64,000 bases of DNA from an uncultured Alphaproteobacteria bacterium (GTDB lineage Bacteria; Pseudomonadota; Alphaproteobacteria; Micavibrionales; Micavibrionaceae), in NCBI GenBank assembly GCA_937923625.1, contig CALDTV010000011.1, forward strand, positions 1-64,000, read 5' to 3'. The position numbers and the translations under genes were made by a program. Numbering within the stretch: the stretch's first letter is position 1; every line of letters begins with the position of its first letter. This document shows, one piece after another, positions 56,840 through 64,000 of the stretch. The notes under the pieces were generated by a model. It was not told the origin of the DNA, ran no database searches, and saw only the letters and a list, made by a program, of their open reading frames with translations.

Positions 56840-57502
56840 TTATCCCGTTACATTTTCTGCAACGATAATGCCGTAATTTTCAGCAAGGGCATTTAAACCA
56901 CCTTCAACTGTTTCGCCAATGGCGCGGAAAATCCAATCCGTGCCAATGCGTTCCAAATCACCAATAATCAAACCTTCTTTACCCGTTAATTCTTCATCTA
57001 ATTCATAGCGAAAGATTTCGTGATCCGTATTTTGATTCACAATACGAAAATAAACATTTTTCACCATAGAAAAATCATGGTCATCTTTTTCATTGTCGTA
57101 AATAGAAAGGACAAAACAAATTTTTGTCACGTCAAATGGCAAACCTATTAGGTCAATCGTCATGATTTCATCATCACCATCCCCTGCGCCCGTACGGCTG
57201 TCACCCATATGTTTAACTGCCCCGTCGCACCCTTGAAGATTGTTATAGAATATAAAATCTTCATCAACACGTGTTTTTTCCTGTAGGTTCAATAAGAAAA
57301 TACTGGCATCCAAATCTAATGGATCTTGTTCAAATGCTTTTAAATCCCAACCAACACCAATGGTAATATTTTTCAAGGTTGGGTCTTTGCGTAACAAATT
57401 GATTTCTTCGCCGCGTTTGATCTTATTTTTCGGCGCGTCTGCGTGCATCATTTCTGGCATATCATTTATATCATCATCAAATTCAGTATCATGCTCTGAC
57501 AT
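56840..57502 (-). CDS. TerD-family calcium-binding stress protein
   Basis: TerD-domain proteins bind Ca2+ and occur in tellurite, phage and general stress systems. The 220-residue protein has an acidic N-terminal extension (about 1-30) and then the TerD fold: INLLRKDPTLKNITIGVGWD near 34-53, LDLDASIFLLN near 62, the calcium site HMGDSRTGAGDGDDE at 98-112, and FVLSIYDNEKDDHDFSMV near 132, ending GLNALAENYGI. It lies 40 bases downstream of the Na+/Ca2+ exchanger gene on the same strand, a linkage that suits Ca2+ control. Confidence 0.9.
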   Translation of the reverse strand: MSEHDTEFDDDINDMPEMMHADAPKNKIKRGEEINLLRKDPTLKNITIGVGWDLKAFEQDPLDLDASIFLLNLQEKTRVDEDFIFYNNLQGCDGAVKHMGDSRTGAGDGDDEIMTIDLIGLPFDVTKICFVLSIYDNEKDDHDFSMVKNVYFRIVNQNTDHEIFRYELDEELTGKEGLIIGDLERIGTDWIFRAIGETVEGGLNALAENYGIIVAENVTG

Positions 57503-59346: not shown

Positions 59347-60033
59347 CTATTTATGCCCCTCATCCCATTTAAGACCAAATCCAAAGGCACGGTCTAGCTC
59401 TGCATGGCCGGGGAAATATTCAAGGTAATTTGTCATCTTAATACCGCCGCGTACATTTTCTAGGCCTGCGACCGCACAAAGTGCTAATTCTTGACGGCGC
59501 GCTTTTAAGGTCACAATCATCGGTTTTTCCTCTGGCACGCGCACTTGAATTTGTGGCTTCACTGTTTCCCAATTCTCCGCGCCTTCGTAGATGTAAATGT
59601 AAATCACAATGCGCTTAAACTCATTCCACATTCTGCCGTTTACTTTTATAAGCTCATCCTCACCTTCGGCATCCCCTGTGCGTTCATCCCCTGATAGGGA
59701 AATATAGGGCTCTTCTTCCAATGATCCGTAACGATCCCCAAAAGCTTGAATAGCGCCGCGCTTACCATTTTTCAATTCGTACAAACAACCAACATCTAAA
59801 TCCACGCCTTTTATTGCTTGCGCTTCTTTAGGGGCTGATTTGCCTAATATCTTATCAAGAAATCCTACTTTTTTAACTGGTTTCGTAGGTACAACATTAT
59901 CCCATGCAACCCCAATCTCAAAATCTTTGATACCTTCTTTGCTGGGGTTCACAACCGCTGTTTGTCCAGGAGAGGATAAAAACTCGGCCTCTTGTGAGTC
60001 ATCATGAGGGCTCACAAATCCTGCCGCCCCCAA
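59347..60033 (-). CDS. Second TerD-domain protein, start uncertain
   Basis: The TerD-like fold is seen in FEIGVAWDNVV near 38, GVDLDVGCLYEL near 75, the calcium-site-like SGDERTGDAEGEDE near 113-126, and IYIYIYEGAENWETVKPQIQ near 146, ending GLKWDEGHK. The first candidate start is a TTG at 60033, but the same frame is open upstream to a TAG at 60145-60147 and there encodes a plausible continuation (PITDKNSRHAIFEATRGRAK) with no ATG, GTG or in-frame TTG. Either a rare start such as CTG (60126-60124) is used, or the 5' end has been altered. The insert GFLDKILGKSAPKE between fold strands is unusual. Confidence 0.8.
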   Translation of the reverse strand: MGAAGFVSPHDDSQEAEFLSSPGQTAVVNPSKEGIKDFEIGVAWDNVVPTKPVKKVGFLDKILGKSAPKEAQAIKGVDLDVGCLYELKNGKRGAIQAFGDRYGSLEEEPYISLSGDERTGDAEGEDELIKVNGRMWNEFKRIVIYIYIYEGAENWETVKPQIQVRVPEEKPMIVTLKARRQELALCAVAGLENVRGGIKMTNYLEYFPGHAELDRAFGFGLKWDEGHK

Positions 60034-60262: not shown

Positions 60263-61939
60263 ATGTCATATCAATATAGTTACGTGATGAAAGGCCTTAG
60301 TAAGACTTGGCCCGGCGGTAAAACCATTTTGAATGATATTACGTTGAGTTTCCTCCCTGGTGCGAAGATTGGGGTTTTGGGGCCAAACGGTGCGGGTAAG
60401 TCTACTTTGCTTAAAATTATCGCCGGCGTTGATACAGAATTCCAAGGCGAAGCATGGGCGGCAGATGGTGTACGTATCGGATATTTACAACAAGAACCTG
60501 AATTAGACGAAACAAAGACCGTTTTTGAGAATATCGTCGATGCAATGGGCGAAGTGAAGGCGAATATCGACCGTTTTAATGCTATTGGTGGTGAAATGGG
60601 TGATCCAGATGCCGATATGGATGCTTTAATGGCCGAAATGGGTGATTTACAAGCCAAAATTGATGCCGCAGACGGTTGGGGCATGGAACGCACCATTGAA
60701 ATGGCGATGGATGCCCTGCGGTGCCCACCCAAAGATTCTGGTGTGACGAAATTATCAGGCGGAGAAAAGCGCCGCGTAGCATTGTGCCGTTTACTACTTG
60801 AAAAGCCAGATATGCTCCTGCTCGACGAGCCAACAAACCATTTAGATGCTGAAAGCGTGGCATGGTTGCAACGTTATTTGGCGGATTATGCAGGTACAGT
60901 CATCATGGTGACTCACGATAGATATTTCCTTGATAATGTCACAGGCTGGATTTTAGAAGTTGATCGCAGCCAAGGCATTCCATATGAGGGCAATTACTCT
61001 GCTTATTTGGAAGCCAAAGCCAGCCGTATGGATATGGAAGACAAAAAAGAAGCCGCCCGTCAAAAAACACTTACCAGAGAATTAGATTGGATTCGCCAAG
61101 GCGCAAAAGCCCGCCAATCCAAATCCAAAGCCCGTATTGCTGCCTATGATCAAATGCTTGCAGAGTCAGAAAGACAAGAAGTACGTACAGCACAAATTGT
61201 TATTCCGACGCCGCCACGCCTTGGAGATTTGGTTATTCAGGCTGAAAATATTAAGAAATCTTTCGGGGACAGGTTACTTATTGAAGACCTTTCTTTTAAA
61301 CTCCCTCCCGGCGGTATTGTCGGTATTATCGGCGCGAATGGCGCCGGTAAAACCACCCTTTTCAAAATGATCACAGGGCTAGAAACCCCAGATAAAGGTA
61401 ACTTCAACGTGGGGGACACTGTTAAGTTAGGCTATGTTGATCAAAGCCGCGACGACCTTGATCCTAACAAAAATGTTTGGGAAGAAATTTCTGAAGGCAA
61501 TGATATTTTGAAATTAGGCAAAATTGAAATGCAATCACGGGCGTACGTGTCTGCGTTTAATTTCCGCGGCCCTAATCAACAAAAAAAACTCAGTCAGCTT
61601 TCGGGGGGGGAACGTAACCGTGTTCATTTGGCCAAAATGTTAAAAAGCGGCGCGAATGTCCTCTTGCTCGATGAGCCGACGAATGATTTGGATACGGAAA
61701 CATTATCTGCTTTGGAAGAAGCTTTAGAGCGTTTTCCCGGTTGTGCAGTTATTATCTCGCACGATCGTGCATTTTTGGATCGTTTGGCGACACACATCAT
61801 CGCTTTTGAAGGCAATTCAGAAGTGGTGTGGTTTGAAGGTAACTACGAAGATTATGAAAATGATCGTAAGCGCCGTATGGGACAAGACTCTGATACGCCG
61901 CAGCGTATCAAATACAAGCCACTGCAAAAAACAGGCTAA
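60263..61939 (+). CDS. ettA: Energy-dependent translational throttle protein EttA (ABC-F)
   Basis: EttA is a cytoplasmic ABC-F ATPase that binds the ribosomal E site and gates translation by ATP level. The 558-residue protein has two ATPase domains: Walker A GPNGAGKST near 40 with signature KLSGGEKRRVALCR near 164 and LLLDEPTNHLDAESV, then Walker A GANGAGKTT near 357 with LSQLSGGERNRVHLAKM and LLLDEPTNDLDTETL. The arm subdomain insert lies in domain 1 and the linker has the basic KARQSKSKARIAAYD. The ending RRMGQDSDTPQRIKYKPL is typical of EttA. An AAAAGGAAATCG site precedes the ATG. A weak CGGCAA/TTGCCG stem lies downstream at 61969-61988. Confidence 0.97.
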   Translation: MSYQYSYVMKGLSKTWPGGKTILNDITLSFLPGAKIGVLGPNGAGKSTLLKIIAGVDTEFQGEAWAADGVRIGYLQQEPELDETKTVFENIVDAMGEVKANIDRFNAIGGEMGDPDADMDALMAEMGDLQAKIDAADGWGMERTIEMAMDALRCPPKDSGVTKLSGGEKRRVALCRLLLEKPDMLLLDEPTNHLDAESVAWLQRYLADYAGTVIMVTHDRYFLDNVTGWILEVDRSQGIPYEGNYSAYLEAKASRMDMEDKKEAARQKTLTRELDWIRQGAKARQSKSKARIAAYDQMLAESERQEVRTAQIVIPTPPRLGDLVIQAENIKKSFGDRLLIEDLSFKLPPGGIVGIIGANGAGKTTLFKMITGLETPDKGNFNVGDTVKLGYVDQSRDDLDPNKNVWEEISEGNDILKLGKIEMQSRAYVSAFNFRGPNQQKKLSQLSGGERNRVHLAKMLKSGANVLLLDEPTNDLDTETLSALEEALERFPGCAVIISHDRAFLDRLATHIIAFEGNSEVVWFEGNYEDYENDRKRRMGQDSDTPQRIKYKPLQKTG

Positions 61940-62206
61940 AACTGTTTGATTTCTGGTTATATTTTGTACGGCAAGAACCCATTTGCCGCTCTAAGCCTAT
62001 CCATACCAACAGAAACCCGCTCTGATTGGCAAGAAAGACGTTTCACAAGAGAGAATCAAGGTTGGCGTATGAAATAAGAACGAAAATGCTGCTATTTATC
62101 TATTTTAAGCCGTCATATCAAAACTCTTCCCAATATTAATAATTCATTTATAATCAATATGTTATCCTAACCTTACAGTCGTGAGGTTGTATTTTATTTC
62201 GTCAAA

Positions 62207-62237
62207 TTGGCAACAGCTTTAAGCGCTGTGATATAAT
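62207..62237 (+). promoter_or_regulatory. Extended -10 promoter for the DotA/TraY gene
   Basis: A perfect TATAAT (62232-62237) preceded by TGA gives an extended -10 (TGnTATAAT), with TTGGCA (62207-62212) 19 bases upstream. Transcription would begin near 62244, leaving a leader of about 90 bases before the ATG at 62335. Confidence 0.65.
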
Positions 62238-62257
62238 CTAATATAGAGAGAAAATTT

Positions 62258-62325
62258 GTCTCGTGATTTTTGGCGGGACACTAACTGGGGCAAAACGCTT
62301 TAACGGATGAGAGCCGTCATAAAGC
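62258..62325 (+). promoter_or_regulatory. Two stem-loops in the DotA/TraY leader
   Basis: TGTCTCG/CGGGACA (about 62258-62281, one G-U pair) and GCTTTAACGG/CCGTCATAAAGC (62297-62306 and 62314-62325) form two stems in the leader. The second ends nine bases before the start codon. No Shine-Dalgarno is visible between it and the ATG, so the structure could control translation. Confidence 0.4.
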
Positions 62326-62334
62326 AAAAAATAT

Positions 62335-64000
62335 ATGACAACGAAAATAGAGAATGTGAATACGCTTGAGGAAGAAAGCCGCGATAAACGTCGCGGCAAG
62401 AAATCGCGTATTATTTCTTACTTTTTATTGCCCGGTATTATCCCCCAAGCAAAAGAATTATCGCGCGGTGGATTTGGTTATCTCGCACTATTAATTGCTG
62501 CCGTATATCAAGCGGTTCGTATTCTTCCGAAAAACCATCCTTATACTTTATACGATAATATGGGATCGTTCGGCATTCGTCAGGTTATTGCGGAGGCCGC
62601 TAATCACGTTAAACTTGATCGTAAAAATTTTGATCAAGCCATTGTTTTCTTCGCTGTTTTGGCAGGAATTGTGATTTTATGCCTTCAATTTATTGGCTTT
62701 ATGCTTTTACTCATCAGTGGCGAAGCCTTCGCGCAAGTCGTGCCAGCAACAGGGCTATTCGGTACAGCATACCCCGAAACAGATATTGCATTTAACATGC
62801 TGCGCGAGGTATTTGGACTACCCACCATGTTCGGAACATTAGCAGGCGGGCCAACGCCATTCCACATTGCACTTCAGGCTATGTTTCAATTTTATAACTT
62901 TGCCATTCTTATCGTCGCACTGGTTGTTTTTGTTTATTATATTATTGTCGTCGTTGCGGAAACTGCACAGACAGGCACACCATTTGGCCAACGTTTTAGC
63001 CATATATATGCCCCCCTAAGATTGGTGATTGCCATCGGCTTGCTTGTACCGCTTAGCTATGGGTATAACGGCGCACAATATATCACTTTTTATGCGGCGA
63101 AATTAGGCTCTGGTTTTGCTTCAACTGGCTGGATTGCATTTAACGATCAACTACAAGCATCAAATCCCCTCGGCGCAGATAACGTAACACTCATCGCAGA
63201 AACAAATTCCCCCGATCCGCAAGCCTTAATAGAATTCATGGCCACCGTGGTAACGTGTCGTGAAGCTTATAAGTTGAAGGAAAAAAAAGAAATAAAACGA
63301 TTTTATCAGGTCGTTGATCCTGCAAATAGAAACAGTCAAATCAATTTTGAGGGCAGCCCTTACCAAGTTTTAAACACCTTAACTGCCTCTAAAAACACCA
63401 ATGATATTCGCGTTGTTTTTGGGATAAAAGAAACATCATATTTAGACTCTTCCGGTAATATTACTGCTTCTAAATCGGCAACAGGGGATTTAATACCTTA
63501 TTGTGGAAGCGTTATCATCCCGATAACTGTTCCCATGGCTCAAGGTGCTAGTGGTAGTTTTGGCATGAGTGAAGATGCAGTTAGCCAGAACGGTGATCCG
63601 GGATATATTCAACGAATCTACACATTATTTGTTGAATCTTTATGGAACAGTGGCGGTTTAAAAACTTTAGGCCAAAAAATTGTAAACACCTATAAATCAT
63701 GCGAAAAAGACACAGAATGTGATTACACTCACGAAGACAAAACTAAAATTATTGATATATTTAAGGGTGATATTGATTTGCTAACAAAAGAGCATTTTAC
63801 AGCAGCTCGCGAAAAATCAGATTTTAGCCTCAATCAGGACACAAAAGAGCGTGGATGGGGCGGCGCAGGTATTTGGTATAATCGAATTGCACAAATAAAT
63901 GGTGCTTATGTTGTTGCTTCGATGAATATACCCACGGGTCAACAATACCCATTGGTTATGGCCAATATTTTGGAACAAAAGCGCGCGAGCGATAGTGACT
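62335..64000 (+). CDS. dotA: DotA/TraY-family type IVB secretion protein, 3' end beyond the window
   Basis: DotA/TraY are polytopic inner-membrane proteins of Dot/Icm-type secretion and IncI conjugation systems. The frame from ATG at 62335 is open for 555 codons to the window edge. A basic N-terminus (KRRGKKSR) is followed by hydrophobic segments near 43-62, 103-131, 184-209 and 229-241, then a large soluble periplasmic-like domain (from about 270) with cysteines near 247-, 370- and 455-. The stretch GWGGAGIWYNRIAQINGAYV at about 507-526 matches the conserved WG-AGIWYNKIAE-NG block of the family (from memory). More spans should follow outside. No other dot/icm gene lies in this window, so further genes should be sought downstream. 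Confidence 0.85.
   Translation, partial: MTTKIENVNTLEEESRDKRRGKKSRIISYFLLPGIIPQAKELSRGGFGYLALLIAAVYQAVRILPKNHPYTLYDNMGSFGIRQVIAEAANHVKLDRKNFDQAIVFFAVLAGIVILCLQFIGFMLLLISGEAFAQVVPATGLFGTAYPETDIAFNMLREVFGLPTMFGTLAGGPTPFHIALQAMFQFYNFAILIVALVVFVYYIIVVVAETAQTGTPFGQRFSHIYAPLRLVIAIGLLVPLSYGYNGAQYITFYAAKLGSGFASTGWIAFNDQLQASNPLGADNVTLIAETNSPDPQALIEFMATVVTCREAYKLKEKKEIKRFYQVVDPANRNSQINFEGSPYQVLNTLTASKNTNDIRVVFGIKETSYLDSSGNITASKSATGDLIPYCGSVIIPITVPMAQGASGSFGMSEDAVSQNGDPGYIQRIYTLFVESLWNSGGLKTLGQKIVNTYKSCEKDTECDYTHEDKTKIIDIFKGDIDLLTKEHFTAAREKSDFSLNQDTKERGWGGAGIWYNRIAQINGAYVVASMNIPTGQQYPLVMANILEQKRASDSD

Follow-up and report, generated by a model that had tools for sequence, protein, structure and literature searches.

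In type IVB secretion systems (T4BSSs) of the Dot/Icm type, DotA and IcmX build the central channel, DotG and DotH form the cage, DotB and DotO act as the motor, and DotL, DotM and DotN recruit the substrates. To our knowledge, it is an open question how Micavibrio feeds through the envelope of its prey. In Legionella, DotA and IcmX have been described as a pentameric protochannel (review PMC12981334), and the table of a second review equates VirB5 with TraW and IcmX, and VirB6 with TraY and DotA, both being pentamers (PMC12624023). Systems of the pT4SSi class have been detected in seven marine Micavibrionales (PMC9418006); thus a T4BSS in this order is not in itself new. The Kib T4BSS of Pseudomonas putida IsoF acts on bacteria (PMC9519443), and the rvh system of the Rickettsiales has three to five rvhB6 genes and is reported to lack a VirB5 equivalent (PMC10732058). 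Micavibrio aeruginosavorus is an epibiotic predator, and its genome paper saw no type III or type IV system (PMC3189940). In the present study, we analysed a stretch of 64,000 bases (the window), which is the first part of a 113,787-base contig (C11) in a Micavibrionaceae genome of 2.05 Mb (28 contigs, 99.8% complete). The window ends within a gene, dotA1, which almost certainly encodes the DotA protein of a T4BSS. Our preferred reading, to which we give a probability of about 0.55, is that DotA1 is an inner-membrane stalk or channel protein, one of three DotA/TraY (VirB6-type) proteins of a vertically inherited Micavibrionaceae T4BSS; the three would perhaps form a mixed stalk, and the machine would probably inject into prey or rival bacteria.

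The three dotA genes are as follows:

62335..64000 in the window, continuing past its edge to C11:65100, plus strand: dotA1 (dotA/traY), from the open reading frame (ORF) list and the TIGR04346 profile; the first of three tandem genes

C11:65100-67799, same strand as dotA1: dotA2, beyond the window, directly after dotA1

C11:67799-70516, same strand as dotA1: dotA3, beyond the window, directly after dotA2

An earlier reading made from the letters alone (the sequence-only reading) had placed a DotA/TraY gene at the window edge and had described it as isolated after ettA. The gene itself was confirmed: the TIGR04346 DotA_TraY profile (cut-off 100) matched the window part of DotA1 with 123.7 bits and the full 921 amino acids with 272.6 bits. 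The isolation was not, as dotA2 and dotA3 follow directly. The three products have 921, 899 and 905 amino acids, and the genes join by 1-base overlaps (TAATG). All three proteins scored above the TIGR04346 cut-off (272.6, 276.3 and 235.2 bits); they remained below the cut-off of 500 of the DotA equivalog NF033886 (190.4, 168.7 and 159.4 bits) and were therefore not filed as Legionella-type DotA equivalogs. Within this genome, DotA2 is 41% and DotA3 38% identical to DotA1, and a whole-genome search found no further dotA copy. Pfam gave zero matches to the DotA proteins at E 0.001. In the PDB profile search, Legionella DotA (9ngy) was the sole confident match (E 6.6e-27; next match 0.36). A match of the full-length protein to another polytopic family, which would have refuted the sequence-only reading, did not occur; the protein matches DotA by its sequence, and the models of its relatives match DotA by fold.

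We profiled 58 relatives of the order, including 37 from the family of the window (f1) and 21 from other families. The matches of TIGR04346 and of the TraW-like profile described below are pieces of profiles rather than genes; therefore, gene counts were taken from ORFs. TIGR04346 was present in 56 of the 58 relatives, namely in 36 of 37 from the own family (3 to 6 pieces each) and in 20 of 21 from other families, where at least 12 of the 21 genomes showed a single DotA gene frame among the matches listed. DotH was found in 53 of the 58, exactly one in each, and DotB in 55, again one in each; the DotB model also matches pilus ATPases, and DotB was counted only above 200 bits. Class-wide, TIGR04346 occurred in 17 of 385 genomes, four of which belong to the family of the window. 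A scan of named genomes, with the three DotA copies as the query, gave 66 loci, all in records named as Alphaproteobacteria, Proteobacteria/Pseudomonadota or Micavibrio. The locus set comprises the best 80 of 130 candidates and its query was built from three copies, so that it may favour multi-copy contigs; the TIGR04346 count in the 58 genomes is free of this bias. Copy number was counted from 68 loci (this genome, G031 and 66 named contigs), with 15 left out that are cut at a contig end. Among the 53 complete clusters, this one counted, 50 had three dotA copies and 3 had four, always on one strand. Their 109 junctions overlapped or touched in 24 cases, lay at 1-50 bases in 63 and at 51-250 bases in 22. 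The genome G031 carries three dotA genes, DotB, DotH and two TraW-like genes, together with DotC, DotD, DotG, DotI and IcmJ-like genes by translation reading. Separately, the locus L143 (G050:C4:108000-126500), from another family of the order, was seen to hold four tandem DotA-like genes of 976-1396 amino acids, perhaps an independent multiplication.

A FastTree analysis of 205 DotA proteins placed the first copies of most loci in a clade A (SH support 97), whose 56 rows come from 55 loci, one row being the second copy of four; the later copies made up a separate clade B (SH support 99), with 121 rows. Within lineages, the second and third copies sorted largely by position. An IQ-TREE analysis of 71 rows, hand-picked from the 205, supported clade A with 98, clade B with 94 and the outgroup with 96, three of the outgroup rows being long-branched. 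The order A-B-B was observed in 45 of 69 loci, and the remainder were cut short, had four copies or belonged to a deeper lineage. The surroundings of the genes were also compared by tblastn. Of 70 loci, 55 gave a match to ettA; in every one of these it precedes dotA on the strand of dotA, and in 46 the distance is below 1 kb. Downstream of dotA3 in this genome lie mlaC- and mlaA-like genes on the opposite strand, and mlaC was found in 47 of 70 loci, always directly downstream of dotA on the opposite strand. In L141 and L142, two single-copy loci that represent two other families, ettA precedes dotA by 184 and 323 bases, respectively; mlaC is present in L142 as well. Since these genes flank single-copy loci of other families, the comparison of loci suggested that the multiplication most likely happened in place at an ancestral site. 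DotA2 and DotA3, despite their low identity to DotA1, sort with their counterparts in other genera, which indicated that the copies have long been kept apart.

The fold was examined on AlphaFold models of the first (A-type) and second (B-type) copies of a relative, L034. The models were built with 58 and 55 aligned rows and had a mean predicted local distance difference test (pLDDT) score of 79.9 and 80.0, respectively. Foldseek matched both to the DotA of 9ngy, the entry of the DotA-IcmX protochannel, with E 4e-14 (A-type) and 1e-14 (B-type). With VIA-align, the A-type model reached Z 21.3 at a root-mean-square deviation (rmsd) of 5.6 and the B-type model Z 21.7 at 6.3, over 579 residues each. 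The next match was R388 VirB6 (TrwI), with Z 8.8 and 10.1, and the first other rows had 5.3 and 6.0. As both types of L034 matched 9ngy, A-type and B-type DotA both appear, in these models, to keep the stalk fold.

The remaining machine was found on two other contigs, C7 and C23, which together carry dotC, dotD, dotH, dotI, dotL, dotM, dotN and icmT, a probable dotB, and DotG-like and IcmB/DotO-like genes. The sequence-only reading had proposed that the gene belongs to a Dot/Icm-type system on the chromosome, the rest of which lies beyond the window, and had named homologues to look for; dotC, dotD, dotH and dotL were recovered, along with a probable dotB and a DotG-like gene, and the proposal stood. 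Around dotH on C7 lie DotI, a DotG-like protein, an unassigned 447-amino-acid gene, a DUF6750 protein (its match just below the cut-off), IcmJ/DotN, the IcmB/DotO-like protein and a weakly TraQ-like protein; further along C7 follow DotB, DotC, DotD, IcmT/TraK, a transglycosylase and a DsbG-like protein. DotC (PF16932, 260.7 bits), DotD (PF16816, 113 bits) and DotH (PF12293, 251.3 bits) were all above the cut-off, as were DotI (NF038072, 200.4 bits, cut-off 175), IcmT (NF038220, 91 bits, cut-off 40) and IcmJ/DotN (NF038221, 104.1 bits, cut-off 100). Against its NCBIfam equivalog, DotD reached 103.6 bits, below the cut-off of 140. DotB, with 384.5 bits, scored highest with its own model among all models and stayed below the cut-off of 463.3; the next pilus ATPase of the genome had 161.6 bits. 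The DotG-like protein has 460 amino acids and matches mostly the C-terminal part of the 1008-position IcmE/DotG model; its similarity is clear, and its scores were below all cut-offs (NF033900, 159.4 against 750; NF033884 TraO, 78.8 against 225; PF03743, 24.1 against 35). The IcmB/DotO-like ATPase (999 amino acids) was called by a weak VirB4 match (17.3 bits), by size and by place, and had no PDB sequence match. The coupling proteins on C23 include DotL, which matched Legionella DotL (PDB 6sz9) with 482.8 bits over 652 residues (E 1.5e-143), and DotM, which matched PDB DotM with E 9e-25 and its NCBIfam model with 163.6 bits, below the cut-off of 230. The coupling protein family has one copy, as counted in this genome only. 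Judged from its genes, this is a chromosomal Dot/Icm-type T4BSS.

Beside the dot genes of C7, we found a second tandem array:

G000:C7:40096-47472 (L013:97-7473), opposite strand to dotI: five TraW/IcmX-like genes, between dotI-dotH-dotG and flgK/flgL

The array products of this genome have 387-591 amino acids and, by eye, starts like signal peptides; elsewhere, many members are long, up to 1063 amino acids. The family was present in 51 of the 58 relatives. Copies were counted by gene in 22 clusters, those of this genome and G031 and of 20 others picked from the 37 family genomes; the number was five in 18 clusters, three in 3 and two in 1. Counted as pieces in all 37 family genomes, five were present in 18 genomes, four in 7, three in 7 and six in 2; one genome had two, another had eight, and G036 had a single weak piece. 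The last copy belonged to one clade in 22 of 22 clusters (SH support 98), and the third and fourth copies sorted largely by position. Five members had no NCBIfam match and three had no Pfam match; even with E raised to 10, NCBIfam yielded a single chance match, and PDB sequence searches with the family gave chance matches only. Single TraW or neighbouring proteins gave no convincing profile match, and alignments of TraW were therefore made. Scored individually, the five gammaproteobacterial TraW proteins had 13.6-19.8 and the seven alphaproteobacterial TraW-like proteins 17.8-34.1. Against the 12 plasmid TraW and TraW-like proteins, the family profile reached a score of 45 with probabilities of 66.8 and 65.6 over about 240 colinear columns, and the column-shuffle control (100 shuffles) reached at most 23.9 against TraW. 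The gammaproteobacterial TraW and alphaproteobacterial TraW-like groups belonged together with a probability of 98.2. These profile comparisons suggested that the array family is a probable distant relative of TraW, IcmX and VirB5. The idea that the five TraW-like genes stand for the five places of a pentamer was rejected as unproven.

Further genes were noted in this region. flgK- and flgL-like flagellar genes (L013:7588-11217), named by translation reading, lie inside the dot region beside the array, and the same was seen in L144. The gene at L013:11446-12252, beside the dotB-side genes, has a domain like the secretin/TonB short N-terminal domain (PF07660, 21.8 bits, below the cut-off). L144:14070-15497 is a similar-looking gene at the matching place, the PF07660 search having been run on the L013 gene only.

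The region upstream of dotA1 contains the following features:

62204..62237, plus strand: putative promoter of the dotA genes, AAATTGGCA, 19 bases, then TATAAT preceded by TGTGA (extended -10); from the alignment of relatives and a pattern count

62238..62334, plus strand: leader of 97 bases, separating the -10 from the ATG of dotA1; stems are predicted, neither significant nor conserved

62168..62189, plus strand: terminator-like hairpin with a T-rich tail, between ettA and the dotA promoter

60263..61939, plus strand: ettA-like ABC-F gene, the upstream neighbour of dotA, also in relatives (tblastn); provisional name, from the sequence-only reading

The extended -10 TGTGATATAAT lies at 62227-62237. 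In an alignment of the window with 10 relatives, a AAATTGGTA-like element and the extended -10 stood at fixed spacing 5' of dotA1. Of 60 distinct upstream regions, 10, the window's own among them, carry the pattern AAATT[GC]G[TC]A, 19 bases, TA[TC]A[ACT]T ahead of the first dotA, and the reversed pattern occurred in 0 of 60, so that the extended -10 promoter named in the sequence-only reading was borne out above chance. Eight of the ten regions belong to the genus of the window; the other two are L042 and L060, whose genus is not established. A tighter form of the pattern had 2 matches genome-wide, one of which is the dotA1 promoter. A simple sigma-70 scan did not list this promoter and listed 62127-62154 instead (1 found against 1.7 expected). 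The putative promoter is thus well supported among close relatives and is not family-wide, because its pattern is confined to these 10 regions, mostly of one genus. The same reading had described a leader of about 90 bases with two stems. The length (97 bases) and the two predicted stems agreed with this description, but the structure was neither significant (12 of 200 shuffles were equally stable, z -1.76) nor conserved in the alignment with the 10 relatives, and Rfam gave zero matches at E up to 1. On these grounds a structured regulatory leader was rejected, and the leader is ordinary as far as tested. As that reading had also stated, no Shine-Dalgarno sequence is visible before dotA1, and its ATG is a putative start. 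Terminator-like sites in 61900-62500 numbered 4 on both strands against 0.6 expected. Near ettA, translation reading showed two TerD-like genes (stress/tellurite family) at 56840-57502 and 59347-60033 on the minus strand.

The channel module appears to be what is amplified, because DotA and IcmX form one pentameric channel in Legionella. If the TraW link holds, the multiplied genes would be the channel pair, and the single DotH and DotB would correspond to one cage and one motor. One cage would then carry a channel that is built from, or exchangeable between, several subunit types. In a mixed (heteromeric) stalk, DotA1 and the last TraW-like copy would hold fixed positions, and the other copies would fill the rest. 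The machine would be a contact-dependent injector of proteins, with prey or rival bacteria as the probable recipients. The fixed number, the close spacing and the one steady member per array slightly favour a mixed stalk, and the differences in count and size among the remaining TraW-like genes speak for variable tips; between a mixed stalk and alternative stalks we would give even odds. That the DotA copies are specialised rather than redundant is very probable. Bacterial targets, suggested by analogy, seem somewhat probable. We hold only tentatively the fuller picture, in which three DotA types and up to five TraW/IcmX-like tips in fixed places, on a single-copy cage and motor, would form the prey-injection machine, evolved in situ, of an at least partly predatory family.

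Several observations weigh against the mixed-stalk, prey-injecting reading. Multiplication is not tied to one family, as G050 (f3) has four DotA-like genes, and G051, G054 and G057 (f5) have two DotA each among the matches listed. G050 has one TraW-like match beside its four DotA, and thus the two counts do not move together everywhere. The genome G033 (f1; single contig, 89% complete) had no DotA match despite DotH, a DotB match and five TraW-like matches, by either an assembly gap or a real loss. In the deeper lineage of nine loci, 17 rows of first and second copies fell outside clades A and B, so that the copy history is less clear there. The Foldseek template modelling (TM) scores to 9ngy were only 0.42-0.45, with rmsd 13-15. 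Against the five gammaproteobacterial TraW proteins alone, the TraW-like family profile reached probabilities of 0.3-0.5, and only L159 (30.5) and L161 (34.1) among the 12 proteins were well above the 13 same-region controls (maximum 22.8). The number of TraW-like genes differs from genome to genome, and this would fit variable tips no less than a fixed mixed stalk. Co-transcription of the three dotA genes from one promoter we infer from their spacing, and the presumed role against prey rests on the lifestyle of one cultured relative.

Among the other explanations, the one that survives best supposes that each DotA forms its own homopentamer with different TraW/IcmX-like tips, and that one cage and ATPase set serves interchangeable stalks for different prey, phases or substrates. 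It would agree with the pentameric state of Legionella DotA with IcmX (PMC12981334) and the 10 DotA chains in two PDB entries, and the differing number of TraW-like copies and the length of several of them would be expected of variable tips. However, the close spacing of the dotA genes (24 of 109 junctions overlapping or touching, 63 at 1-50 bases) and their nearly fixed number (three in 50 of 53 clusters) suit joint use better, and we consider alternative channels doubtful. It is unlikely that the injector is directed at eukaryotes (protists), in the manner of Legionella and Coxiella, rather than at bacteria. T4BSSs were until recently thought to act on eukaryotic cells only (PMC9519443), and the coupling proteins here match those of Legionella; yet bacteria are the prey of the cultured relative, an epibiotic predator (PMC3189940), and the T4BSS of Pseudomonas putida kills bacteria (PMC9519443), neither having a direct bearing on this genome. 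Redundancy, in which dosage or drift maintains copies that all do the same work, would explain why each DotA still reaches the family score and has many invariant residues in common with the others, but their low identity (41% and 38% to DotA1), combined with grouping by counterpart across genera, makes this very unlikely. A conjugation machine, in which DotA/TraY would serve DNA transfer by the IncI-like system, degenerate or still active, of an integrated element, is highly improbable: the gene order of the second locus resembles an IncI-like plasmid (L152) and the relaxase family PF03432 matched in 20 of 58 genomes, with one weak match here (C16, 27.6 bits, cut-off 24.6), but 38 of 58 had no PF03432 match (other relaxase families were not searched), the match in this genome is not on a contig with dot genes, DotL, DotM and DotN serve as coupling proteins, and dotA follows ettA also in other families of the order (with mlaC next to it in L142), which speaks for vertical descent.

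A T4BSS occurs in almost every relative of the order that was searched (DotA in 56 of 58, DotH in 53 of 58), which makes it a concrete candidate for the feeding of Micavibrio. The amplified channel module also poses a testable question for type IV secretion systems (T4SSs), namely whether a VirB6/VirB5-type pentameric stalk can be mixed and what is gained from extra stalk types. The sequence-only reading had called Dot/Icm-type systems outside gammaproteobacteria and IncI plasmids poorly described, which needs correction, as those of the Micavibrionales had already been reported (PMC9418006). With that report, the present system shares the order and apparently the system class, and DotA copy number and channel amplification are absent from the text of it that was available. 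In the open-licence PMC literature, we found no report of an amplification of both channel partners in a family-wide T4BSS; as far as this search extends, what is new is an amplified channel module kept across a family, and the kind of T4BSS is already known.

Compared with the Dot/Icm systems of Legionella and Coxiella (pT4SSi class), the system shares DotA, DotC, DotD, DotH, DotI, DotL, DotM, DotN and IcmT, a probable DotB, and DotG-like and IcmB/DotO-like proteins, all encoded on the chromosome, and with Legionella in particular the DotA fold and a close DotL. It differs in its three DotA, its tandem TraW/IcmX-like family, its short DotG and the distribution of its genes over at least three places. 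The IncI-type (R64-like) Tra systems share the order traM, traN, traO, x, DUF6750, HNH, traU, together with IcmT/TraK and the DsbG-like protein. A Stutzerimonas plasmid is annotated with the order traM, traN, traO, x, traQ, DUF6750, HNH, traU, traW, x, dotA/traY; most of this order is kept here, whereas the TraQ-like gene lies elsewhere, dotA is far away and tripled, and the probable traW relatives stand in an array of their own. IncI-type systems have, as a rule, one TraY (1217 places in 1207 records), and none of them covers 80% of DotA2 (0 of 1207). Kib is also a T4BSS, one shown to act on bacteria, and it is a recently acquired island (PMC9519443), whereas the present system is spread through the order. 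The closest analogue in logic is the rvh system of the Rickettsiales, an alphaproteobacterial T4SS with a multiplied VirB6-type protein; rvh is a type IVA system (T4ASS) reported to lack a VirB5 equivalent (PMC10732058), whereas here the probable VirB5-like partner is multiplied as well.

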